Source: a virus
Reading direction: 5' to 3' (one strand)
IMG/VR virus record: IMGVR_UViG_3300024966_000002
Location: 1 to 41,797 of that record
Length of the DNA: 41,797 nt
Below the pieces are notes generated by a model. That model ran no database searches and was not told the DNA's origin. It saw nothing but the letters and a program-made list of their open reading frames with translations. Below are positions 3,537 through 27,466 of this stretch, in pieces. Positions within the stretch are counted from its first letter, which is position 1; each line of letters begins with the position of its first letter. Made by a program: the position numbers and the translations under genes.

Positions 3537-4607
3537 TCACCCTCTATATTGACTACTGCCGATACACTGGCTTCCTGCTTCCAGACGCGATAGCCCTCGC
3601 GCGAGAATAATGGCAGCACTATTTATGTCTCTGTCATGCGTAACGCCACAGACACAAGTCCACTCTCTCTCATTCAAACCTGCAAGACCTTTCGGGCCAG
3701 CTATGCAGCCACATGCACTGCAAGTTTGGGTGCTCCAAGCTTCATTAACTTCCTCAAAAAATACCTGCGCCCTAATGGACTTATACTCAAGCATTTTTTT
3801 AAACATGTACCAGCCAGCATCATTAACCGACTTGCCCATATTTGTTCTTGCTAACTTACTGCTGCTTACATTTCCTACAAATATTGCTGCGTTATCACCC
3901 ACCAACTTAGTGCTTAATTTATGCAGCATGTCGGCTCTACGGTTCTTTATCTTGGCGTGAATAGCACGTACCCTGTTTTTCTTATTAGCGCGTTGTGCTG
4001 TCGCTAAATCATTCTCAGACTTACGATAAATTTGCTCTGCTTTTACCTTTAATCCGTCAGAGGTTGTCAAAAACTCTTTTAATCCCAAGTCAATTCCTAT
4101 TGCCTTAGTTCCATCGCTCATGACATCAGCAACTTCAACCGCTATATTTATATACCAGCGCCCACGTCCGTCCTGGCTAAAATTACCAGACCTCAATTCA
4201 TATTTACTTAGCCCATAGCTATCCCATATTCCAAAATTGCTACCGTAAAAAAATATCTTGCCATTTCGATACTTGGCGCTTCCTTTCTTTATTGGTATCC
4301 ATCCAAGTGACTTGCGACTTCCGAACGAGGTGCGCCAACTAAGTTTGGTTTTCTTTGCCTGATTACGTTTATAAGCATATTCATTGCATATAGAGTTGAT
4401 AGTCTCCTGAGGTATGCATAGTCCGGCTTGACTTGATCCGGTTACATATTTTTGAAGTTCATACCCACTTAACCATTTGTAACGCTCGTTTATGCTTCTA
4501 TGAGAAAGTTCGTTAGTAAAGTTCCATACCATGTTTACTTCCATTGCCATACGATTCAATATATTTGAATGTTTATCCTTTACTCGTATGTGCAATGTTT
4601 TAATCAT
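3537..4607 (-). CDS. tnpB: TnpB-family RNA-guided nuclease-like protein (IS200/IS605 OrfB), without TnpA
   Basis: A 356-residue protein with the OrfB N-terminus (KTLHIRVKDKHSNIL, VWNFTNEL) and a RuvC-like half. RuvC-I is GIDLG (Asp173). Zinc-ribbon cysteines lie at 296, 299, 318 and 320 (CSACG...CVCG). RuvC-III is HDRDINSAA (Asp327). At the RuvC-II position the usual VxxEDLN is IFVGNVSSS, so the standard Glu is replaced by Gly; Glu residues at 285-289 (FFEEVNEAW) could act instead. The ATG at 4607 has AGAGGGG upstream and matches the conserved family start, so a longer frame was trimmed. No Y1 transposase gene is present. The 8-mer CCCTCTAT flanks the gene (3540-3547 and 4614-4621). Cleavage competence is uncertain. 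Confidence 0.9.
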   Translation of the reverse strand: MIKTLHIRVKDKHSNILNRMAMEVNMVWNFTNELSHRSINERYKWLSGYELQKYVTGSSQAGLCIPQETINSICNEYAYKRNQAKKTKLSWRTSFGSRKSLGWIPIKKGSAKYRNGKIFFYGSNFGIWDSYGLSKYELRSGNFSQDGRGRWYINIAVEVADVMSDGTKAIGIDLGLKEFLTTSDGLKVKAEQIYRKSENDLATAQRANKKNRVRAIHAKIKNRRADMLHKLSTKLVGDNAAIFVGNVSSSKLARTNMGKSVNDAGWYMFKKMLEYKSIRAQVFFEEVNEAWSTQTCSACGCIAGPKGLAGLNEREWTCVCGVTHDRDINSAAIILARGLSRLEAGSQCIGSSQYRG

Positions 4608-4657
4608 ATATTCCCCTCTATGGGATAAAAAATCATCATGGTCATTCGGTCTGTGCT

Positions 4658-5017
4658 TCACTCGGGATGCGCTACCGACTTGGCGAGTGCAGCAACTTCC
4701 TCTGGATTCTCATCACGCCACTGCTGCCATGATTCATCGGTAAGCTTCCAGTTAATCCACTCGGCTGTATCTGGTTTTGGCTTGTATGTAGTGCCGCGGT
4801 AACCTGAACATTTTTTGCAGCGTTGTGGATAGCCATGTAAGTGATCTCCGCAGAAATACAGGCCGCACCCCTTGTCTCCACCATACGGTTCTCCACCGCA
4901 CACATGGCTTAATCCTCTGTCAATATCAGCGTTACATTTTGGATGGTCACACTTGGCAGGTACGCCATAGCCAATGTCGCGCTTCCAATTACTGTCATAT
5001 CCAATAGACCAGCCCAT
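4658..5017 (-). CDS. Cysteine-rich phage early protein, probable zinc binder
   Basis: A 119-residue protein with a conserved-looking start (MGWSIGYDSNWKRDIGYGVP) and a dense set of metal ligands: C-DHPKC, HVCGG, CGLYFCGDHLH and RCKKC. The pattern suggests two zinc clusters in the first 70 residues, with a Trp/acidic helical tail. I have seen this type in phage early regions but know of no assigned function. The start is taken at ATG 5017; GTG at 5020 is also possible, with GGAG upstream. Its 3' end (4648-4677) contains a copy of the boundary repeat found elsewhere in the operon. Confidence 0.7.
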   Translation of the reverse strand: MGWSIGYDSNWKRDIGYGVPAKCDHPKCNADIDRGLSHVCGGEPYGGDKGCGLYFCGDHLHGYPQRCKKCSGYRGTTYKPKPDTAEWINWKLTDESWQQWRDENPEEVAALAKSVAHPE

Positions 5018-5125
5018 CACGATTCTCCTTTACGCCACGCCCCGTTAACGCCAAGACCACTGAGGCCAATTGAACAAAATGCTGCTGTTTTATTAATCAA
5101 TCCCTACTAATAGATGCAATGCCTA

Positions 5126-5431
5126 TTACTTAGCCTGTTGGTTTGTGATGGCAGGCTCTAGCAGTAAGTCCACGTGTTCATCGAAATGCTGCGCCACACT
5201 GCCTTTTAATATGCACTTTTTAGTAATCATGCTGGGCAATTGAAATTCGAAATATTGCTGATTGCTTGCGAGTTGTTTCTGTAAGGCTATCCCGCCAACT
5301 CTAAAACGTATGCTTTGGTAACGCACTGCATCCTTCCTCGCATCTTCAAGCTCTTGCCTGAGTGATGTGATGGTGGATTGCTGAGATTCGATAGTTTGCA
5401 TTTTCTCTCTCAGTATTTCATGCATGTCCAT
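5126..5431 (-). CDS. Coiled-coil early protein of unknown function
   Basis: A 101-residue protein. Residues 1-40 form a heptad-rich helix (LREKMQTIESQQSTITSLRQ), and the rest is a compact domain with no recognised motif. AAGGGG precedes the ATG by about eight bases. Phages often carry such coiled-coil plus short-domain proteins between recombination genes. Function unknown. Confidence 0.6.
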   Translation of the reverse strand: MDMHEILREKMQTIESQQSTITSLRQELEDARKDAVRYQSIRFRVGGIALQKQLASNQQYFEFQLPSMITKKCILKGSVAQHFDEHVDLLLEPAITNQQAK

Positions 5432-5511
5432 TTTTGCGCCCCTTGGTATGTGCTTCTGTAGTCATGGTATTAATCCTAAAATCATTAAAGCATTATGTTC
5501 ATTAGTGAGTG

Positions 5512-5538
5512 GGTCTTGACGTTGCGTCCTACCCGTTG
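5512..5538. repeat. Boundary repeat copy (27 bp) at the 3' end of a small early gene
   Basis: This segment matches 6012-6038 at 25 of 27 positions (GGTCTTGACGTTGCG...TACCCGTTG). Together with the preceding TTAGTGAGTG it also forms an inverted pair with 5888-5920, where CAACGGGTA and CACTCACTAA recur in reverse. The two inverted copies bracket the gene at 5529-5876. See the findings on dispersed boundary repeats. Confidence 0.6.
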
Positions 5539-5876
5539 GCTAGTGGGTAAAGTTCATAATGGCGCTTTAAATCATCAGGATCGCTAATTGGCAGCATTTC
5601 CTGTGGCTCTCCACATTTACCTTTTAAATACACAAAACATTCCATTCCGCAGCCGCCAGATATTCCTACGTTAAAGCATTCACTTGTTCCAACTGGGTAG
5701 TTGCCTGTGTTTGCTAGTGCATTCCCATGCTGTAAAGCTTCTTCTTCATTAGAGGGTGGCGCATCAAAAATTATCTTCATCTTGTCGGCGCTATTTAATT
5801 TTTCCGTTGAGTGCCAGCGCCCAAATTTTTCTATATTTTTATCAATCTCAATTTTTATAAATTCACGCTTATTCAT
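5529..5876 (-). CDS. Small early protein of unknown function, cysteine-containing
   Basis: A 115-residue protein (MNKREFIKIEI start). An N-terminal basic/acidic helix is followed by ALQHGNALANTGNYPVGTSE and a Gly/Cys-rich stretch (GGCGMECFVYLKGKC) that could form a small redox or metal site. ATG at 5876 is chosen because AAAGGA lies six bases upstream; a longer frame has no site. The gene is bracketed by inverted copies of a boundary repeat, hinting at acquisition as a unit. Confidence 0.55.
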   Translation of the reverse strand: MNKREFIKIEIDKNIEKFGRWHSTEKLNSADKMKIIFDAPPSNEEEALQHGNALANTGNYPVGTSECFNVGISGGCGMECFVYLKGKCGEPQEMLPISDPDDLKRHYELYPLANG

Positions 5877-5943
5877 CACTATCCTTTCAACGGGTAATCC
5901 GTACCGAATCACTCACTAACATAATTAACAAAGAGCTAGGCTG

Positions 5944-6375
5944 CTAGAATGGTGGCAAGTCATCGTCAAAGTCATCAAAACCAGAACTAGGCTTTTGTTC
6001 ATTAGGTTTGTGGTCTTGACGTTGCGCGCTACCCGTTGCACCGTCATTTTTCCCGCTAAGCATTTGCATCTGGTCGGCAATAACTTCTGTTGCATACCTA
6101 GTCACGCCGTCTTTCTCCCATTTGCGAGTTTGCAACTTGCCTTCCAGGTAAACACTTGAGCCTTTCTTTAGGTACTCGCCTGCAATCTCTGCCAACTTGC
6201 GATAGATAACGATGTTTACCCATTCTGTTTTTTCCTGCTTAACGCCTTGTTTGTCTTTCCAAGATTCATTGCAAGCAATTGAAAAGTTGCAGACTGCATC
6301 ACCTGCTGGCATATAGCGCATTTCAGGGTCTTTTCCGAGAGTTCCAACTAGGATTACTTTATTTACTGATGCCAT
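5944..6375 (-). CDS. ssb: Single-stranded DNA-binding protein
   Basis: A 143-residue OB-fold protein starting [20 protein letters not shown], with the SSB core [20 protein letters not shown] and [13 protein letters not shown] short polar linker leads to the acidic tip DDDLPPF, which in bacterial SSBs recruits partner proteins. It coats single strands during phage replication and recombination and lies directly after the Sak3-type annealing protein, its usual partner. The linker is encoded partly by a copy of the dispersed boundary repeat (6012-6038). Confidence 0.95.
6012..6038. repeat. Boundary repeat copy (27 bp) inside ssb linker
   Basis: Near-identical (25/27) to 5512-5538, but here it lies within the ssb reading frame, in the codons for the linker after the OB fold (around [10 protein letters not shown]). 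A repeat that is intergenic in one place and coding in another suggests either recombination at short homologies or an origin of the other copies from an ssb end. Confidence 0.55.
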
Positions 6376-6378
6376 GAT

Positions 6379-7062
6379 TTATGCCGCTTCCTGTAGTTGA
6401 GTTGGTTTTAAAAGTTCTGTTCTGTATTCTTTTACCGCCCTGCGTAGTGGTGGCATATCCTTAAGCCTTCCCCATGCCTCTAGCCTGTCCTCGTTGTTAT
6501 CAAGGTCGATATAGATGCAGTCGTGAGCTGACTTAACATCGCCTGCGTTATAGGCATCTATTGCGCTGGTCACTGCCAAATCAATCTTGCTCTCATGCTC
6601 TTTCTTTTCGTTTTGGCCAATGTCTGGAATATCCTCGCCAGCATAGATATATAGCCCAAGGCCAAACATTGCTAGGTTCTTAACCAGGCAGCGCATGATT
6701 GTTTTATTCACGTCAAACATATCAAAGGCCGCCACCTTCTTTTCAATCTCTTTGCTTTTGTACTTATCCCATACCGTGTAGGTGTAGGCTTCTCGCTTCA
6801 TGGCATTGTTTGCACCATCCATCACTGGTAGCCACATTTCGTGAGTTGTGCCGTTAGCTGTGACTTTGGTGTAAACCATCACGCCAGCCCAGCTTTCAAA
6901 ATATGGCAGCCCGTTAGCGTCTTTTACCACCTCGTAAGTCGCATCCTCGTGAGCCTGCTTGAAAGCATCCCAAGCCCATGCCCATGACAGGTAAGTCAGG
7001 CCGTTCTTTTTCTCTGTATGCTCGTTTACATTGATTGTGCGTAGCTGTTCGTACTTGCTCAT
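6379..7062 (-). CDS. Single-strand annealing protein, Sak3 type (DUF1071)
   Basis: A 227-residue protein with hallmark blocks of the DUF1071/Sak3 family: KKNGLTYLSWAWAWDAFKQ, YTKVTANGTTHEMWLPVMDG and the AFDMFDVNKTIMRCLVKNLA helix near the centre, then GLGLYIYAGEDIP. Proteins of this class are Rad52-like annealases used by phages for recombination. ATG 7062 (MSKYEQL) is preferred: GGAG is seven bases upstream, whereas the ATG six bases earlier is too close. It sits immediately before ssb, with which it should act on single-stranded ends. Confidence 0.8.
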   Translation of the reverse strand: MSKYEQLRTINVNEHTEKKNGLTYLSWAWAWDAFKQAHEDATYEVVKDANGLPYFESWAGVMVYTKVTANGTTHEMWLPVMDGANNAMKREAYTYTVWDKYKSKEIEKKVAAFDMFDVNKTIMRCLVKNLAMFGLGLYIYAGEDIPDIGQNEKKEHESKIDLAVTSAIDAYNAGDVKSAHDCIYIDLDNNEDRLEAWGRLKDMPPLRRAVKEYRTELLKPTQLQEAA

Positions 7063-7110
7063 TTTCATACTCCTGATGTAATGTAACTGTCTGATAAAAC
7101 TGATCGCCAC

Positions 7111-7799: not shown

Positions 7800-8747
7800 T
7801 TAAACTGCTACTAACTTGTTTTTTTCATTGAGCTTGTAAACAACATCAGCCTTGATGCCTTTTTCACCAACGTAACCCACTACTAAGCGGTATCTTTCTT
7901 TTTCTGAATCCCAATAAGAAAGCGCGATACACCCATATTCTCCGGCGCTTGCCGTGCTATTTAAGCCAACGCCTACAGCGATAGATTTTTTACCTGATGC
8001 TGCTAGTTGGCTGTAGTCACCTGATGCTGCTAGTCGGCTGTAGTGACCTGATGCTGCTAGTCGGCTGGAGTAACCTGATGCTGCTAGTCGGCTGTAGTGA
8101 CCTGATGCTGCTAGTCGGCTGTAGTGACCTGATGCTGCTAGTTGGCTGTAGTCACCTGATGCTGCTAGTCGGCTGTAGTGACCTGATGCTGCTAGTCGGC
8201 TGGAGTAACCTGATGCTGCTAGTTGGCTGGAGTAACCTGATGCTGCTAGTTGGCTGTAGTCACCTGATGCTGCTAGTTGGCTGTAGTCACCTGATGCTGC
8301 TAGTCGGCTGTAGTGACCTGATGCTGCTAGTTGGCTGGAGTAACCTGATGCTGCTAGTCGGCTGTAGTCACCTGATGCTGACTGAATTTTATCGCCGTTC
8401 GCAATATCTTTTAAAGCCAGCTTTATCCAGTTATCGGAAATCATGGTCATTGCGCCGCCCATGTTGCCGCTGTAGACAATCTTGCAGGTTTCAAACTTCA
8501 CCTTTTTGTCATCAATAATCACGCACTTTTCGCGGTCAACTTCGACGACTTGCCAGACAGCATCAACATCATTACTTAGCAAACCATAGTCGCCATTTCC
8601 ATCTAGTAAAGCGTGCAATCCATTCCCGCAACTTGCTTTAGCATCCCAATCAGTAGCGGTAACAGTTGCCCCAACCTCAAGGGGCCACTTAAAGCCGCCA
8701 TAAGTGCTTCCGTCTTTTGCACATGTTCTGATTGCTAATGCCTTCAT
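7800..8747 (-). CDS. Nonapeptide-repeat phage protein (DUF7666-like)
   Basis: A 315-residue protein. Residues 1-125 form a domain with MKALAIRTCAKDGSTYGGF and a GNGLHALLDGNGDYGLL block, resembling uncharacterised phage proteins I associate with DUF7666. Residues about 124-249 are 14 consecutive copies of ASG(D/H/Y)(Y/S)S(R/Q)LA. A degenerate copy (ASGKKSIAV) leads into a C-terminal cap (ASAGEYGCIALSYWD, then VGEKGIKADVVY). The repeat probably forms a regular beta-solenoid. AGGAG lies eight bases before the ATG. Function unknown. It is bracketed by a 15-bp inverted repeat. Repeat number is probably unstable because the DNA repeat is nearly perfect. Confidence 0.75.
   Translation of the reverse strand: MKALAIRTCAKDGSTYGGFKWPLEVGATVTATDWDAKASCGNGLHALLDGNGDYGLLSNDVDAVWQVVEVDREKCVIIDDKKVKFETCKIVYSGNMGGAMTMISDNWIKLALKDIANGDKIQSASGDYSRLAASGYSSQLAASGHYSRLAASGDYSQLAASGDYSQLAASGYSSQLAASGYSSRLAASGHYSRLAASGDYSQLAASGHYSRLAASGHYSRLAASGYSSRLAASGHYSRLAASGDYSQLAASGKKSIAVGVGLNSTASAGEYGCIALSYWDSEKERYRLVVGYVGEKGIKADVVYKLNEKNKLVAV
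8001..8378 (-). repeat. 14 tandem 27-bp repeats
   Basis: Fourteen in-frame 27-base units encode ASGxxSxLA. Differences fall almost only in the codons for residues 4 (GAC, CAC or TAC), 5 (TAC or TCC) and 7 (CGA or CAA). The units keep period and sequence without spacers, so this is a coding tandem repeat and not a CRISPR array. A fifteenth, diverged unit follows at 7974-8000. Confidence 0.95.
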
Positions 8748-8772
8748 TTATATTCTCCTAATTAACTGCACT

Positions 8773-8787
8773 TGAATACGGTAGCGC
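8773..8787 (-). repeat. Right arm of the 15-bp inverted repeat
   Basis: Exact reverse complement of 7778-7792, placed in the leader of the nonapeptide-repeat gene about 25 bases before its start codon. In an mRNA covering both arms the two could pair and close a loop around the whole gene. Alternatively they are recombination scars. Confidence 0.7.
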
Positions 8788-8815
8788 CTCGCATGAGACC
8801 TACAATCTAATCTTC

Positions 8816-8968
8816 CTAAAATGCCCTTATTGCTGCATCTACAAACCACCATAAGCACCCAACTACTCCTAACACTAAGAACACCAACCCCAAGAATGTC
8901 AGCTTGTAGCTATCACCTAGCTTTTCAGATACAGCGTAGTAATCTCGTACTATTGGGGATGAGTTCAT
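8816..8968 (-). CDS. Small single-pass membrane protein
   Basis: A 50-residue protein: a 22-residue polar N-terminus (MNSSPIVRDYYAVSEKLGDS) followed by one long hydrophobic helix (LTFLGLVFLVLGVVGCLWWF) and a short end. Its start overlaps the stop of the pentapeptide-repeat gene (ATGA at 8965-8968), showing translational coupling. Function unknown. Confidence 0.65.
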   Translation of the reverse strand: MNSSPIVRDYYAVSEKLGDSYKLTFLGLVFLVLGVVGCLWWFVDAAIRAF

Positions 8969-9537
8969 GCTGCTATCACTTCTGGTTCAGGATTAGCCTT
9001 ACGAAACGCCAGCGATTCTTTGCGGTGCGCTTTACATGCAGCTAGTAGCCACGACTTGTTTTGTGTCCAGAAAGCCGAGGCGCGTGATTCCATGCGCGAT
9101 ATTTCATTGTCATCAAACGCCTTCCACTTATCATGCTCATGGCGCTGGCATCCGATAGTCAGGAATGATTCAGTGATCGTAATATCCCAAGTCGTGCCAT
9201 TCATGAAGATAGGGCAGATGGCGAGTTTTTCACCCCGCAAGTAAGCACCCTGCAAGTCAGCACCCTGCAAGTAAGCACCCTGCAAGTCAGCACCCTGCAA
9301 GTAAGCACCCCGCAAGTCAGCACCCCGCAAGTAAGCACCCTGCAAGTCAGCACCCTGCAAGTAAGCACCCTGCAAGTAAGCACCCTGCAAGTAAGCACCC
9401 TGCAAGTAAGCACCCTGCAAGTCAGCACCCCGCAAGTAAGCACCCTGCGCCGCTGCTTTAACCAGTGCCGCCCTAATATCTGTAACTTCAAACTCACAAA
9501 GTGTTGTTCCTGTGAATCTATGTTTTATCGAAATCAT
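8965..9537 (-). CDS. Pentapeptide-repeat protein
   Basis: A 190-residue protein. After a 30-residue leader come about 15 pentapeptides of the A(Y/D)L(Q/R)G type (residues about 31-105), which fold into a right-handed quadrilateral beta-helix. The C-terminal 85 residues (LAICPIFMNGTTWDI, TIGCQRHEHDKW) form the cap domain seen in phage pentapeptide proteins. Some family members mimic DNA and inhibit gyrase (MfpA, Qnr), but nothing here establishes that activity. The gene overlaps both neighbours by four bases in ATGA junctions. Confidence 0.85.
   Translation of the reverse strand: MISIKHRFTGTTLCEFEVTDIRAALVKAAAQGAYLRGADLQGAYLQGAYLQGAYLQGAYLQGADLQGAYLRGADLRGAYLQGADLQGAYLQGADLQGAYLRGEKLAICPIFMNGTTWDITITESFLTIGCQRHEHDKWKAFDDNEISRMESRASAFWTQNKSWLLAACKAHRKESLAFRKANPEPEVIAA
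9223..9447 (-). repeat. Tandem 15-bp repeats encoding pentapeptides
   Basis: About fifteen 15-base units, alternating mainly CTGCAAGTAAGCACC and CTGCAAGTCAGCACC on the plus strand. Units are nearly identical at the DNA level, which indicates recent expansion or ongoing homogenisation and probable copy-number instability. Confidence 0.9.
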
Positions 9538-20307: not shown

Positions 20308-20329
20308 AACCACCTTCGGGTGGTTTTTT
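20308..20329 (+). terminator. Intrinsic terminator with TTCG tetraloop
   Basis: AACCACC-TTCG-GGTGGTT followed by T. It separates the terminase segment from the portal segment. Confidence 0.85.
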
Positions 20330-20638: not shown

Positions 20639-22768
20639 ATGGCACAAATGGATGATATCCAGCTCATTGCCATTATTGAGCAACAGGAAAGTAACGCCAT
20701 TGGCTACTTCAACGGCGAGATTGCAGACGAACAGGCATTAGCGACTGACTATTACAACTCCAAGCCACTAGGTACTGAGGAAGAAGGTCGAAGCTCGGTC
20801 ATGTCGTCTGACGTGTTTGATGTGGTTGAGGGCATGACCCCGCAAATCCTTAAGCCATTTGTAAGCTCAGATGAAGTGATCAGATTCAACCCGCACGGCC
20901 CTGAAGACGTAGAGGCCGCAGAGCAAGAGTCGGATTACATCAACTATGTGGTCACGCAAAAGAACAACGTATTCGAGCAGCTCACTAATTGGGTAAAGAC
21001 AGGCCTGCTACAGAAGAACGGCATTGTTAAATACTGGTGGGATGAATCACGCAAAGCTGAGATTGAGCGTTACTACGGCCTGACGGACGATCAATTTGCA
21101 ATGATGATGCAAGAGATCGACGGCAACAAGGATATCACTGTCAAGGCTCACTCTGAAGAGATGGTAGAGATGGACGGCATGCAGATGATGATGCATGACG
21201 TTGAGCTGCGTATAACAAAGGTTGCTGGAGAAGCACGTTATGCTGTTGTTCCTCCTGAAGAATTCCTTATTAGTCGTGATGCCAAGAGTATAGACCCACA
21301 ACGTGCAACATTTGTAGAGCATCGCCAGAAGCTAACACTGTCAGCCATTCGTGAGATGGGCTATGAGGTTGACGATAAAGATATCGACCTGTCTGCAAAC
21401 GATACCGATTTGAGCCAGCAAGCCTTGGCCCGCTTAAATGCGGACGAGACTGAGACATTCAACGGCGAGTTCTCTGATATCTCCATGCGTGAAACGCTGT
21501 TCCGTGAAATTTATATGCAGACCGACTATGACGGTGACGGCATCGCTGAATTACGCAAGATATGCATGGTAGGCAAGCGCATCCTGGAGAACGAGGAGAC
21601 CGAAGAAATCCCGTTCTGCGCCTGGACTCCATATCTGCAAGCATTTAAGTTCTACGGAAAGTGTCCTGCCGATGAGACTGTCGAGATTCAGTTGGTTAAG
21701 ACCACGCTGATTCGTCAAAACATGGACAACATCTATACGATCAACAACAACCGCACGTTTGTCAGCAATGACGTAAATATTGACGACCTGCTTGATAACG
21801 CCATTGGCGGCGTGGTTCGCCTTAAAGACAAAGCGCAGGGCGGCGTATCAAATCACGTCATGAGTATGCCTGTTACCCCTATCGGCGGCATCATCCAGCC
21901 CATGATTGAGTATTGGGATACCGCCAAAGAGAACCGTACAGGCTTTACCCGTTATAACCAAGGCATGGATGCCAATAGCCTGAACAAGACAGCCACAGGC
22001 GTTCGCATCATCACCGAGCAATCCAACCTAAAAGCCGAGCTGGTATCGCGCACATTTGCTGAGTGCGGGCTAAAGCCGCTGATGCTTGGCATTCATGGTT
22101 TATGTCGCCGCCATTCCACACAGCAAGAGACTGTACGACTTCGTGGCAAGTGGGTGAATGTTGACCCTCGCCAGTGGAAAACGCGCACAGATATGACCAT
22201 CAGCGTAGGCCTTGGCAACTCTGACAACCAAATCAAGATGCAAGGCATACAAAGCATCATCAATACGCAGAAAGATCTGGCTGCTATCCCTCAATTGGGG
22301 CTAGTCAAGCCACAAAACGTATTCAATGCCGCCGCCGAGATGGCGAAGACGCAAGGATTTAAGGATGCGGAGAAATTCTTCACACGTCCACCTGAAGGCG
22401 AGCAGCCGCCTGCAATCCCGCCTGAAATGCAGCAACAAATGCAGGAAATGCAGCAACAACTTCAGCAATTGACGCAAGAAAACCACGACTTGAAGCAAGG
22501 ATTTGCGCTTAAACAGCAGGAAATCAGCCTTAAGAAAGAGGAATTAGACCTGAAGCACGCTGTTGCTGTTGATACCGCTGATCTTGAGCAGCAAAAGGTT
22601 GATATATCCAAGGTATCGCAAGAAAACGCCTTTCTAAAGGATGTGGTAAGCACATTGCAGGAACACCAAAACGACATGCTTGAGCATCAGTCAGCCCAGA
22701 GCGACCTATTGCAAAGCGTCATGAAAATCATAGTAGGCCAACCGGAGACAGAAGATGTCAACTCTTGA
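20639..22768 (+). CDS. Portal protein
   Basis: A 709-residue protein of the P22-like podovirus portal type. Recognisable portions are YYNSKPLGTEEEGRSSVMSS and DVFDVVEGMTPQILKPF near the N-terminus, VPPEEFLISRDAKSI in the middle, then the helical region with AKENRTGFTRYNQGMD. The last 170 residues form a long Gln/Glu-rich coiled coil (MQQQMQEMQQQLQQL), reminiscent of the P22 portal barrel. It forms the dodecameric vertex through which TerL packages DNA. It directly follows the small gene upstream (TAAATG). Confidence 0.85.
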   Translation: MAQMDDIQLIAIIEQQESNAIGYFNGEIADEQALATDYYNSKPLGTEEEGRSSVMSSDVFDVVEGMTPQILKPFVSSDEVIRFNPHGPEDVEAAEQESDYINYVVTQKNNVFEQLTNWVKTGLLQKNGIVKYWWDESRKAEIERYYGLTDDQFAMMMQEIDGNKDITVKAHSEEMVEMDGMQMMMHDVELRITKVAGEARYAVVPPEEFLISRDAKSIDPQRATFVEHRQKLTLSAIREMGYEVDDKDIDLSANDTDLSQQALARLNADETETFNGEFSDISMRETLFREIYMQTDYDGDGIAELRKICMVGKRILENEETEEIPFCAWTPYLQAFKFYGKCPADETVEIQLVKTTLIRQNMDNIYTINNNRTFVSNDVNIDDLLDNAIGGVVRLKDKAQGGVSNHVMSMPVTPIGGIIQPMIEYWDTAKENRTGFTRYNQGMDANSLNKTATGVRIITEQSNLKAELVSRTFAECGLKPLMLGIHGLCRRHSTQQETVRLRGKWVNVDPRQWKTRTDMTISVGLGNSDNQIKMQGIQSIINTQKDLAAIPQLGLVKPQNVFNAAAEMAKTQGFKDAEKFFTRPPEGEQPPAIPPEMQQQMQEMQQQLQQLTQENHDLKQGFALKQQEISLKKEELDLKHAVAVDTADLEQQKVDISKVSQENAFLKDVVSTLQEHQNDMLEHQSAQSDLLQSVMKIIVGQPETEDVNS

Positions 22769-23036
22769 AGTAACGCTAGCTATTGGGGTGACAAGCGACC
22801 CTATTTTAGCCATTAAGCCAGAAACTACCATTACCGCTGTTCCTGGTGGCGGCGGCTCTGTTTCAGTTGAATATTCAACCTCTACGGAAGGCAAAGTGAC
22901 CGCCGGGACTGCTAACTGGCAGACGTGGCCCGCAGGGTCGGTGACGGCTACTACTAGCGACACACTGATTGGAAAGATCACTGCCATCAGAGCTACTGCA
23001 TTGGTAGCAATAGGCTTGCTTGAGGTGCGTAACTGA
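22755..23036 (+). CDS. Small beta-rich virion-type protein of unknown function
   Basis: A 93-residue protein with strand-rich, Thr/Val/Gly-heavy composition (ITAVPGGGGSVSVEYSTST; SVTATTSDTLIGKITAIRAT). This suits a small capsid or tail decoration protein. It has GGAG upstream, overlaps the portal gene by 14 bases and shares one base with the next start. No family recognised. Confidence 0.6.
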   Translation: MSTLEVTLAIGVTSDPILAIKPETTITAVPGGGGSVSVEYSTSTEGKVTAGTANWQTWPAGSVTATTSDTLIGKITAIRATALVAIGLLEVRN

Positions 23037-25123
23037 TGGGCGGCCCGTGGAGAGGTGATACTGTTGGCGGCAGTAGCGGGTTAGGCTCATCTGCCGACAA
23101 TCCCTACGATGTAGTCGTTTACATGGCTAACTTCGCTGGCATATGCGCAGCCATAGCAGCCAAGCGTCAAGGCGCTAGAGTGCTGCTGATTAACCCGCGA
23201 GAAGATATAGGCGGCATGCCAGTATCAGGGGTAGCGTTTACCGATTCTCAAAGCGGTACGTTCATGCGCAGCACCATCACTGGAATCGTTGCCGAGATAT
23301 ACAACAACGCCGACAAGATTTACAACTTTGGCCTGCAGGATTACTACCGTGTAAATAACTACTCATGCGAAAACAAAGTGATGCAGGTCATCCTGAACCG
23401 CATGTTGCAGAAAGAAGATATCCAGGTACATAACTACGTCAAGATCACCGGACTCGCAAAGTCAGGTACGACTATCTCATCAGTCACTACTGACACGATG
23501 GGTACGATCTACGCCAAGCAGTACATTGATGCAACCTATTGGGGCGATCTGTTGCCACTGGCTGGATGCTCTTACACAGTAGGCCGCGAAGCGCTAGCTC
23601 AATACACCGAGACAGGGTATCAAGCAGGTACGATTACTGCAGCAGCCAATCAGCCTACCAATCCAGTAGACCCGTACATCATCGCTGGCGACTCTGCTTC
23701 TGGCCTGTTGCCTTACGTGCAAGCAGGTACATTGCAGGCTAATGGCAATGCCGAGACTACCGTGCAGGCAATGGGCATGCGTCTTGCAATGACCAATGAC
23801 GCAAGCAAGATTGCGTTCCCTGCGCCATCCAACTATAACCCCGCTAATTATGAGTTATTCCGCCGCCACTTAGTTGCTAATGGTTCAGGCTGGACTAATG
23901 CTACTGATGTATTGAACTTCCAGAATGGTTTCCCTGCTATCCCGCCTGCAACGATTAACAAGCGTGATGCGAATAACAAAGGCATCTTTTCATTAGATTA
24001 CATCCACCCAGACTCTACTAGGTACGCCACAGCCACATGGGATGAGCGAGCACAGATTAACGAAGATATCCTGCAATACACACTTGGCTGGTTCTACTTC
24101 CTGCAATACGACACTACACCTGCAACAGTAGCCGCAGTACCAGCAGCATTACGCACTAGCATGCTGACATGGGGGCTATGCCCTGACGAGTTCGTAGACA
24201 ACGCTGGCATGTCCTACTACCCATACCCACGAGAAGGCCGCCGCATGATCGGTGACTTCGTGGTTAAGGCCCAGAATATAGGGGCTTTGAATGCGTTTAC
24301 TGACCAAGTAGCCCAAGCCTATTACGCCTTTGATTCACATCCATGCCAGAACCTGGCCTCGGCTGGAATTCTCAAGCAAGAAGGCGCAATGACTGGTGCG
24401 CAAGTATCTATCGTCGGGAATCGTATTCCTCGCCGCATATACATGCCTAAGGTTTCAGAGTGCACCAACCTTGCAGTTGTATGTGCAGGCTCCATGACAC
24501 ACGCTGCTTACTGCGCTATCCGCTTGGAGCCTATCTTTGGCAACATAGCAGAAGGCGCTGGGATTAACGCCGCACTCGCTGCACAGAAAGGCACTACGCT
24601 GCAAGGCGTTACTGATGCTGATGTGCTGTACTACCAGGATATCTATGGATGGCGTAACTATGGTGGAGCTTCGCTATCTGCTGATGGCACATACAATCAA
24701 GGCACGGTAGTTACTGTTGGGACTTGGGGGACTAGCGCCACATACATTTGCGGCACTACTACCATCGCCACCTGCAACGCCACCTCGGCAACTAATACCA
24801 AAGAATTCCAGCCCACCTTGCAGGAAAGCACTTTGTATGACGTGTATGTCAGGTTTGTAGATACCAGCACCACTACACGCGGCACGCCAACATTCACTGT
24901 TAAGTCGCAAGGCTCTACTGTATTCACAACCACGCTGAATGAAACATACACGGCAGAAGGTGGCTATTGGCCTCATCTTGGACAGTTCTTCTTCAAGGCA
25001 GGGGATGCTACCAATAACAGCGTGATGATTACCCATGACAATACAGCAAACGCTACAAATATTGCTGGCATGATATTTATCCCAGCTCGGAATAATCCAA
25101 AGAATAAACGCACGATTCTTTAA
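23036..25123 (+). CDS. FAD-dependent oxidoreductase-like protein with golvesin-like C-terminal domain
   Basis: A 695-residue protein unexpected in a head operon. Residues 22-525 follow the FAD_oxidored (xanthan-lyase-associated) family closely: YDVVVYMANFAGICAAIAA, GARVLLINPREDIGGMP, YIDATYWGDLLPLAGCSYTV, MRLAMTNDASKIAFP, PYPREGRRMIGDFVV and AIRLEPIFGNIAEGAGINAA. Residues 550-683 resemble golvesin/Xly carbohydrate-binding domains (FQPTLQESTLYDVYVRF). The FAD-binding signature is abnormal: the usual GGxxAG is MANFAG, and Asn53 stands where a ribose-binding Glu is normal, so cofactor binding may be weakened or lost. No signal peptide. It sits between portal and scaffold genes with a terminator behind it, like a moron. 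A virion-associated glycan role is possible. Confidence 0.85.
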   Translation: MGGPWRGDTVGGSSGLGSSADNPYDVVVYMANFAGICAAIAAKRQGARVLLINPREDIGGMPVSGVAFTDSQSGTFMRSTITGIVAEIYNNADKIYNFGLQDYYRVNNYSCENKVMQVILNRMLQKEDIQVHNYVKITGLAKSGTTISSVTTDTMGTIYAKQYIDATYWGDLLPLAGCSYTVGREALAQYTETGYQAGTITAAANQPTNPVDPYIIAGDSASGLLPYVQAGTLQANGNAETTVQAMGMRLAMTNDASKIAFPAPSNYNPANYELFRRHLVANGSGWTNATDVLNFQNGFPAIPPATINKRDANNKGIFSLDYIHPDSTRYATATWDERAQINEDILQYTLGWFYFLQYDTTPATVAAVPAALRTSMLTWGLCPDEFVDNAGMSYYPYPREGRRMIGDFVVKAQNIGALNAFTDQVAQAYYAFDSHPCQNLASAGILKQEGAMTGAQVSIVGNRIPRRIYMPKVSECTNLAVVCAGSMTHAAYCAIRLEPIFGNIAEGAGINAALAAQKGTTLQGVTDADVLYYQDIYGWRNYGGASLSADGTYNQGTVVTVGTWGTSATYICGTTTIATCNATSATNTKEFQPTLQESTLYDVYVRFVDTSTTTRGTPTFTVKSQGSTVFTTTLNETYTAEGGYWPHLGQFFFKAGDATNNSVMITHDNTANATNIAGMIFIPARNNPKNKRTIL

Positions 25124-25129
25124 TTAATT

Positions 25130-25151
25130 AGCCGCCTTTTGGTGGTTTTTT
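25130..25151 (+). terminator. Intrinsic terminator after the FAD-oxidoreductase-like gene
   Basis: AGCCGCC-TTTT-GGTGGTT then T, a 7-bp stem with two G-U pairs. It isolates the upstream gene from the scaffold segment. Confidence 0.65.
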
Positions 25152-25169: not shown

Positions 25170-25448
25170 ATGGACAAAATAGAGCAAGCGATATTACGTG
25201 CAAGCCAAGCCGAGCAGCTATTAGCTAACCCGCTATTCGACTTAGCCTTCACAGATACTCGCTCCGCCGTATTGGAAGCGCTAGCAAGCCTCCCAGACGT
25301 GCGTAATGAGCATGCACAAGACCTGCACAGGATGATTAAGTGCTTGGATAAGGTAAAGCAAGTCATCGAGACGCATATTGACACCGGGAAGATCGCACAG
25401 AAGCAGCTTGAGCGACCTTCGACACTACGACGAATACTAGGAACCTAA
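25170..25448 (+). CDS. Small head-module protein of unknown function
   Basis: A 92-residue helical protein (QAILRASQAEQLLANPLFDL and VLEALASLPDVRNEHAQDL). Proteins of this length and pattern are found beside scaffold genes of several podoviruses, without a known role. AAAGG lies six bases before the ATG. It is enclosed by terminators on both sides. Confidence 0.6.
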   Translation: MDKIEQAILRASQAEQLLANPLFDLAFTDTRSAVLEALASLPDVRNEHAQDLHRMIKCLDKVKQVIETHIDTGKIAQKQLERPSTLRRILGT

Positions 25449-25511: not shown

Positions 25512-26465
25512 ATGGAACAAGAGCAGAACCAAACTCAGGAACTCGAACAATCGAATACTCCTGACGCAGGAAGCTTAGACGAAGACCAGGCAGCAGAAGC
25601 GTTTGGCAAATTGGATGGTGAAGTAGAGGAAACAGCACAAGAACAGCAGGCAGAGGACGAGTCTACCGACGAGGAATCCACTGAGGAATCAGAGGAAGAA
25701 CCAGCCGAGGAAGATGATGAACCTGAACTGGTGAATGTGGAGTTTGACGGCAAGGAATACCAGGTGCCGCCTGAGCTTGAAAAAGCCCTTTTACGCCAAG
25801 CCGATTACAGCAAGAAGACTCAGGAACTTGCAAAAGTTCAGGAGCAAGCGGCAACCGTACAGAAGTCAGCAACAGAGATGTTCGAGGCTAGCCAGCAATA
25901 TGCTGAAAACCTCGCTGTCGTCCTGTTGCATGAAGACCGTGTCAAGCAATTAGAAGCTCTTGATTGGGCCGATTTGCGCACGAAAAACCCAGCTGAGTAC
26001 GCAGCATTAGCCGCCGACTTGATGACCGCCAAAACGCAATTGAACGAGCAAGTGGCATCCCTGCAAGGCATTAAGGGAAAGATCACCGCAGCACAGCAAG
26101 AACAACTCAACACCAAGCGTGCCGAACTTAACGATTACTTGAAAAAGAACGTGACTGGATGGGGAGAAAAGCTTGGCACTGAGTTGACAGCTTATGCGGT
26201 TGATAAAGGCTACAAGTTTGATGAAATAGCAACAATTACCGATCCGCGTTGGGCTGAATTGGCGATTAAAGCCATGAAGTACGACAAGTTGCAGGATTCC
26301 AAGCCTGGACTTAAAGACAAAGTTAAAGACGCTCCCAAGGTGCTTAAACCTGGCACCGTTCCAAAGAAGGTTAGCAACAAAGACACCGCATTTACCCATT
26401 TACGCAAGACAGGCTCAGACAGCGCCGCAGAGGCAGCTTTTGCAGCCATTGAACGAGGAAAATAA
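25512..26465 (+). CDS. Scaffolding protein
   Basis: A 317-residue, strongly acidic protein. The first 80 residues are mostly Glu/Asp/Gln/Ser (TDEESTEESEEEPAEEDDEP), then VEFDGKEYQVPPELEKAL and long charged helices with a basic C-terminal end. This is the typical composition of phage scaffolds that chaperone capsid assembly. It lies directly before the major capsid gene. GGAG precedes the ATG by eight bases. Confidence 0.8.
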   Translation: MEQEQNQTQELEQSNTPDAGSLDEDQAAEAFGKLDGEVEETAQEQQAEDESTDEESTEESEEEPAEEDDEPELVNVEFDGKEYQVPPELEKALLRQADYSKKTQELAKVQEQAATVQKSATEMFEASQQYAENLAVVLLHEDRVKQLEALDWADLRTKNPAEYAALAADLMTAKTQLNEQVASLQGIKGKITAAQQEQLNTKRAELNDYLKKNVTGWGEKLGTELTAYAVDKGYKFDEIATITDPRWAELAIKAMKYDKLQDSKPGLKDKVKDAPKVLKPGTVPKKVSNKDTAFTHLRKTGSDSAAEAAFAAIERGK

Positions 26466-26467
26466 TC

Positions 26468-27466
26468 ATGTTTAAGCATTTCAATCTATTACGGTTGATC
26501 GAGTCATTTACCCTGATGGCCGTACCAACCAACACGCTGCAAACTTACCAATCAACCTACAACGCTGAAGATGTTAGCAACATCATCATGAACGTTTCGC
26601 CTTTCGATACCCCATTACTGACAATGGCAAAGAACGGCAAAGCCGAAGCCACTTACACAGAATGGCCCGTTGAATCTCTGGCTGCTGTTGATACATCCAA
26701 TGCCAACATCGAAGGTGATGACGCAACGATTGATGTATCAGGCACTCCTGCTCGTGTTGGTAACTATTGCCAGTTGTTCGACAAGACTGCATCCGTTACT
26801 ACTACACAAAATGCCATCAAGAAATACGGCGCTACCAATGAAATGAATCGCCAGAAGGTGAAAAAGTCCAAAGAGCTGAAACGCGACATTGAGACTACCT
26901 TCTTCCTGAATCAGGCACGTGTTGTTGGTTTGGCTGGCACTGCCCAAAAGATGCGCTCACTTCCTTCATGGTATGTGACCAACGTTTCTCGCGGTGCAGG
27001 TGGCGCTAACGGTTCGGCAACTGCTGCTGCAACTGACGGCACACAACGCAATTTCACAGAAACATTGTTTAAAAACGTGATCGTATCGTGCGCTACCAAT
27101 GCTAACGATATGCCTACCACTGTATTTGCTGGCCCAGCTAACCGCGCCAACATCTCCAGCCAATTGTCCGGCAACAGCACACGTTTCTATGAGCTGAAAG
27201 ACGGTCAGTTGAATGCCTCTATTTCTGTGTATCGATCAGACTACGGCCCACTGAAGATTGTGATGGATCGTTTCCAGCGTGAGCGTGATATGCACTTCAT
27301 CAACCCTGACTACATCGAAGTCCGCACCTTGGAGCCAATGCAGTATCAAGACCTGGCTGTTACCGGCCTGTCACAAAAGGGTCAGTTCTGGACAAACCTT
27401 ACATTAGGCGTGTTGGCAGAATCGGCACATGGCGTATTGGCTGACTTGACCACGACAGTCCTTTAA
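26468..27466 (+). CDS. Major capsid protein (DUF5309, SU10-type)
   Basis: A 332-residue protein whose sequence from residue 17 (MAVPTNTLQTYQSTYNAEDV) matches the DUF5309 capsid family, an HK97-fold group. Conserved pieces are NVSPFDTPLLTMAKNGKAEA and MHFINPDYIEVRTLEPM. GAGG lies upstream of ATG 26468, which adds 16 residues; ATG 26516 would match the usual family start but has no ribosome binding site. It would form the icosahedral shell. A strong terminator follows, which may set a high level of capsid mRNA. Confidence 0.85.
   Translation: MFKHFNLLRLIESFTLMAVPTNTLQTYQSTYNAEDVSNIIMNVSPFDTPLLTMAKNGKAEATYTEWPVESLAAVDTSNANIEGDDATIDVSGTPARVGNYCQLFDKTASVTTTQNAIKKYGATNEMNRQKVKKSKELKRDIETTFFLNQARVVGLAGTAQKMRSLPSWYVTNVSRGAGGANGSATAAATDGTQRNFTETLFKNVIVSCATNANDMPTTVFAGPANRANISSQLSGNSTRFYELKDGQLNASISVYRSDYGPLKIVMDRFQRERDMHFINPDYIEVRTLEPMQYQDLAVTGLSQKGQFWTNLTLGVLAESAHGVLADLTTTVL

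Follow-up and report, generated by a model that had tools for sequence, protein, structure and literature searches.

Module swapping among virion enzymes such as tailspikes and depolymerases is well known, as are the hydrolases, lyases and esterases with which phages attack the capsules and exopolysaccharide of bacteria. The known virion depolymerases belong to these same three classes, and in the open-access literature that we searched we found neither a flavoenzyme fold in such a role nor any report of a virion protein of the FAD_oxidored family (PF12831). Golvesin/Xly-like domains (IPR033803 modules), for their part, bind glycans in vitro in two Bacteroides lectins (PMC9166713). As to gene order, phage SU10, whose virion has been solved, encodes a portal (gp6), a scaffold (gp8) and a capsid protein (gp9) with room for one gene (gp7) between portal and scaffold; the description of the SU10 virion assigns no structural protein to gp7, which counts against the virion-module reading proposed below.

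The stretch of DNA analysed here (the window, all 41,797 nucleotides of a viral record) begins with a tRNA-Leu (caa) and a tyrosine integrase (34-1235), an arrangement that fits a prophage attachment site at the left end of this 41.8-kb record, so that this short-tailed phage is probably temperate. Its early genes include one for a TnpB-type protein with an OrfB_IS605/Cas12f1-like TNB domain (3537-4661, minus strand), and at 7800-9537 (minus strand) a DUF7666 protein with many SxLAASGxY repeats adjoins a pentapeptide-repeat protein. The head genes follow the order terminase, SU10-type portal, 93-aa gene, 695-aa ORF, 92-aa gene, scaffold and SU10-type capsid protein. All from the portal onward lie on the plus strand: the portal at 20639-22768 (SU10_portal PF23899, E 2e-189), the 93-aa gene at 22755-23036, the 695-aa ORF from its ATG at 23036 to its stop at 25123, the 92-aa gene at 25170-25448, the scaffolding protein at 25512-26465 (phrog_3927, E 1.1e-43) and the major capsid protein at 26468-27466 (SU10_MCP PF17236, E 9e-79). 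The 93-aa gene overlaps the portal gene by 14 bases and the 695-aa ORF through a TGATG, and these end-to-end overlaps suggest a probable translational coupling of the three. A search for relatives of this 93-aa gene gave none that was informative; in related phages, too, the cargo gene follows a small gene of about this length, with no detectable homology to that of the window. An intrinsic-terminator-like hairpin follows the FAD gene (25130-25147, plus strand), with others at 20308, 25457 and 27485, and the region holds 14 such sites against 6.3 expected from shuffling. The original prediction, which placed the ORF between portal and scaffold and before a terminator, had the position right while leaving out the 93-aa and 92-aa genes, and its terminator corresponds to the hairpin just described. 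A recent acquisition of the ORF is unsupported, its GC (0.50) and GC3 (0.52) matching those of its neighbours.

Residues 25-526 of the protein (23108-24613) form a FAD_oxidored domain of the GR2-type Rossmann class, matched by PF12831 over profile positions 1-408 of 416 with 226.7 bits (cut-off 27; E 8.3e-67), and residues 555-673 (24698-25054) form a Golvesin_C (Xly CBD-like) domain, matched by PF25275 (IPR033803) with 43.3 bits against a curated cut-off of 31.6 (E 4.8e-11). The E-values of these two independent Pfam profiles rule out chance similarity, and the homology of both domains is directly established; the family assignments first made from the letters of the DNA were open to refutation by such profile searches and came through them. 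PHROGs holds no family matching the protein. Its first 24 residues (23036-23107) are Gly/Ser-rich, resemble no N-terminus among the other cargo proteins compared and have an AF2 pLDDT of 33-40 across residues 1-20; by analogy with the swap pattern of Rhizobium phages they are a candidate anchoring tag and linker. No hydrophobic stretch or signal peptide was found there, in agreement with the earlier call. The AF2 model, built from 21 sequences, reaches a pLDDT of 74.5 and a pTM of 0.75. A structural comparison, proposed at the outset as a check, gave FAD proteins as best Foldseek matches (2i0z, 3v76 and flavocytochrome c3, the HI0933-like/flavocytochrome c3 class; probability 1.00, with E-values near 1e-8 for 2i0z and flavocytochrome c3); the TM-scores to the query are only 0.2-0.3, which may reflect the partial confidence of the model.

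The same two domains in the same order make up a bacterial protein of Spirosoma oryzicola (WP_232563097; 667 aa vs 695 aa), whose N-terminus looks by eye like a secretion signal and which has a GGTSAG motif and the ribose-binding Glu and adjoins RagB/SusD. In contrast, the window protein has no signal, carries MANFAG and an Asn at these positions, and is encoded in a head operon.

Relatives of the window phage, found through the capsid protein, show that in those of its close kin whose records cover this stretch the portal and a conserved gene of ~95 aa, the 92-aa gene of the window, frame a variable slot. Among phages with capsid proteins 69-82% identical to that of the window (L037-L040), the slot is empty in L037 and L039, as it is in the more distant L043-L045, and holds a 93-aa gene, a ~480-aa protein and a ~140-aa protein in L038 and L040. 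In L046 and L047, whose capsid protein is 85% identical to that of L040, it holds a fibre-like protein of 407-418 aa. More distant phages carry at this place a 977-aa G8-like protein (L083), a 323-aa protein whose N-terminal ~50 residues are common to the L046 protein (54%; L084), an ART-PolyVal protein (L076) or a glycosyltransferase-8 (GT8)-like gene (L062 and L077). The large genes that fill the slot in this clade include fibre-like, beta-rich and G8-like ones. Judged by sequence, most occupants in the close relatives look like particle proteins, and the GT8-like and ART-PolyVal genes show that proteins of other kinds than surface proteins can fill the slot too. Past an SU10-adaptor-like gene there is a second variable slot, with large fibre-type genes in L040 (11001-16956), L037 (7479-11005) and L039 (11684-13447); it sits near the site of the SU10 long tail fibre genes, and the window has no such gene there.

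The protein does not stand alone. Relatives occur in other phages, three of them in isolates, although a virion role for them was not found in the literature. The three matching records of the phage collection are all Rhizobium phages (N3_19 gp110, Y55 gp23 and I72 gp36), annotated as FAD-dependent oxidoreductase or hypothetical protein, and IMG/VR yields 16 more contigs besides a copy of the window's own phage. In the Rhizobium phages, which represent three groups, the FAD gene adjoins the portal gene or lies one gene away, so that the search for the same gene beside the portal elsewhere succeeded, albeit in other phage types. Their proteins share with that of the window the FAD domain (~30% identical), the portal-adjacent place and a small preceding gene; they differ in that a ~290-aa N-terminal module (phrog_18498/26223-like) replaces the golvesin domain. 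The AF2 pLDDT of this module in the related phage proteins is 34, and we claim no fold for it. For the FAD domain of Y55-type proteins, dN/dS is 0.05-0.10 with dS near saturation, which suggests purifying selection. The FAD-plus-golvesin architecture itself recurs in four of the 16 IMG/VR contigs (L015-L018), whose proteins, like that of the window, have no evident signal peptide and carry the same Asn; unlike it, they keep a GATASG/GATCSG motif, and their phages measure ~93 kb, apart from a single 61-kb contig. Tail-fibre genes lie near the FAD gene in L015 and L018 and also in L021, L022 and L029, and in L023 it has a tape-measure gene on one side and a gpJ-like tail gene on the other. Upstream of the FAD-plus-golvesin gene of L015 is a 976-aa gene (4134-7064) whose N-terminal part weakly matches carbohydrate esterase 2 (phrog_37372). 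In a tree, the window protein sits on a long branch and groups with none of these.

It is in the Rhizobium phages that the exchange of the FAD gene at a fixed position is directly observed. The FAD gene of N3_19 is replaced by a BNR_4 (sialidase-like) protein in N3_13 and I3_11 (portal 99.7% identical) and by an SGNH/GDSL-type esterase in phiM6 (portal 72%). That of Y55 gives way to an esterase in Y17 (phrog_8480, E 4.5e-166; portal 98.4%) and to a BNR_4 protein in N17 (portal 87.3%), and that of I72 to a 575-aa protein of no known family in I65 (portal 98.7%); at the same place, I36 and RHEph04 have a gene that matches the Y17 esterase in size, the only property compared. The proteins flanking the swapped gene in close relatives are mostly 87-100% identical; for the small gene that precedes the cargo, identity is 100% (N3_19/N3_13), 94.8% (Y55/Y17) or 94.0% (I72/I65). 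Within these cargo proteins the N-terminal ~30 residues go with the locus and the body goes with the module. Thus, the I72 and I65 proteins share only residues 3-31 (76%), with nothing significant in the remainder, whereas the BNR_4 proteins of N3_13 and N17 (L130, 4513-6636, and L135, 10137-12260), although their phages, a podovirus and a Kleczkowskavirus, belong to unrelated types, have bodies that are 72% identical from residue 32 behind different N-terminal tags. Likewise, from residue 28 the FAD proteins of Y55 and I72 have bodies with 88% identity to each other, and the bodies in L021, L022 and L029, contigs with tail-fibre genes, match them at 73-75% identity behind other N-termini. A segment of the phage module at the N-terminus of the FAD proteins has a weak counterpart within the BNR proteins. 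A locus-specific N-terminus joined to a swapped body is also the build of virion polysaccharide depolymerases and esterases such as tailspikes, and the swap partners are themselves BNR_4 and SGNH-type proteins. Near-identical Rhizobium phages therefore carry alternative glycan-directed proteins at one locus. These clean swaps involve FAD proteins ~30% identical to that of the window, with another N-terminal module and no golvesin domain, which counts against a direct transfer of the argument; in the window's own clade the variability of the slot is seen directly, its occupants are mostly without assigned identity, and the glycan-directed partners come from the Rhizobium phages.

Based on the above data, we propose that the FAD gene is one among the exchangeable occupants of a slot in the late head operon and that its product is a virion-borne, glycan-directed module, a reading that we consider probable. 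It is drawn from the swap pattern, the glycan binding of golvesin-class domains and the bacterial relative beside RagB/SusD. Particle proteins directed at receptors or glycans would be expected to swap in this way, and metabolic genes would not; the extension of the argument from the Rhizobium phages to the window, across distant sequences, rests on the shared domain, the portal-adjacent place and the variability of the slot. The product would be carried on the particle, with its short N-terminus as the probable anchor, perhaps aided by the 93-aa protein encoded just before it. Its target would be a polysaccharide on or around the host cell, to which the golvesin domain would bind, and the FAD_oxidored domain would also bind the sugar and might oxidise it. 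A glycan-active or glycan-binding virion protein, one of the options raised by the original prediction, is hence the best-supported alternative in view of the swap partners and of the golvesin-bearing lectins (PMC9166713); its presence on the virion, its surface exposure, its sugar binding and any catalysis are what we infer from sequence comparison. The broader idea is that phage virions bear flavoenzymes which modify polysaccharides by oxidation, a redox equivalent of the depolymerases of sialidase and esterase type, and that these derive from bacterial enzymes of polysaccharide utilisation; we hold it only tentatively and are inclined to doubt it.

Were the product instead an auxiliary metabolic enzyme, made late and acting in the host cytoplasm on a small-metabolite substrate, outside the particle, then its membership of an enzyme family, its missing signal peptide and the GT8-like gene found at the same place in distant relatives would all find a ready explanation. 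However, its golvesin domain is of a kind that occurs in secreted proteins, the gene sits amid head genes, and its relatives are fused to phage modules and swapped for sialidase-like and esterase proteins at a fixed position; we regard such an enzyme as unlikely.

The state of the dinucleotide-binding site bears on whether the FAD_oxidored domain of the window copy still works as one. The motif MANFAG (residues 30-35; 23123-23140, plus strand) and the Asn at residue 53 are as originally reported. The degeneracy and altered cofactor use read from them are borne out in part: Met30 and Asn32 are indeed peculiar to this protein, but Asn53 is shared and part of the family lacks the canonical Glu. 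Where this protein has Met30, 28/28 other sequences from bacteria, archaea and phages have the first Gly of the motif, and the second glycine position, Asn32 here, is Thr in most of the subfamily. The ribose-binding Glu itself is present in some of the bacterial and phage sequences; at its position most of the Bacteroidota sequences compared have Ser, most phage sequences of the Rhizobium type have Gly, and the window protein and its four golvesin-bearing phage relatives have Asn. Two further changes peculiar to the window protein, Glu169 to Trp and Gln395 to Tyr, affect near-invariant residues. In a leave-one-out test with 15 clusters, the window protein departs at 13/71 near-invariant columns, G30M, T32N, E169W and Q395Y included; this is high and not the highest, since vL020 departs at 18/76, Halocatena at 13/70 and Y55 at 12/70. 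Y55-type phage proteins have lost the last motif glycine instead, and from such sequences it seems that cofactor use may have been altered in more than one phage lineage.

These losses, and Met30 above all, keep alive for the window copy the other option of the original prediction, a redox fold turned capsid decoration, taken here as a decorating or stabilising protein whose two domains bind neither flavin nor sugar, and the empty slots, which show the gene to be dispensable across the clade, would suit it too. Yet the copy has retained its golvesin domain and most of the near-invariant polar residues of the family (R184, E185, R249, R399, E400, R403, D433, H435, H489, R496 and E498), and we consider such a structural exaptation decidedly unlikely. 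If the virion glycan-module reading holds, the window copy could still be an active flavoenzyme, although we lean somewhat against this, Met30 and the loss of Glu169 and Gln395 being counted against catalysis; judged by the motif, oxidation is more likely in relatives that keep its first glycine. An internal head protein, injected with the DNA to act inside the cell, for instance on host redox or defence, would accord with a gene between portal and scaffold and with the ART-PolyVal protein in the slot of L076, but it is very improbable given that the golvesin-type domain and the swap partners indicate extracellular sugars and that the neighbours in other phages are tail fibres.

For a PF12831 protein, service as a glycan-directed module on a virion would be a new use of the enzyme family within an ordinary swapping logic. 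If a flavoenzyme fold does fill this exchangeable role, phages may also breach surface sugars by redox chemistry or with a converted redox fold, and the locus would provide a first concrete setting for the PF12831 proteins of polysaccharide loci, among which we found no characterised member. The Rhizobium isolates, whose head genes around the locus are near-identical except for the swapped gene, make the question testable through adsorption and host range.
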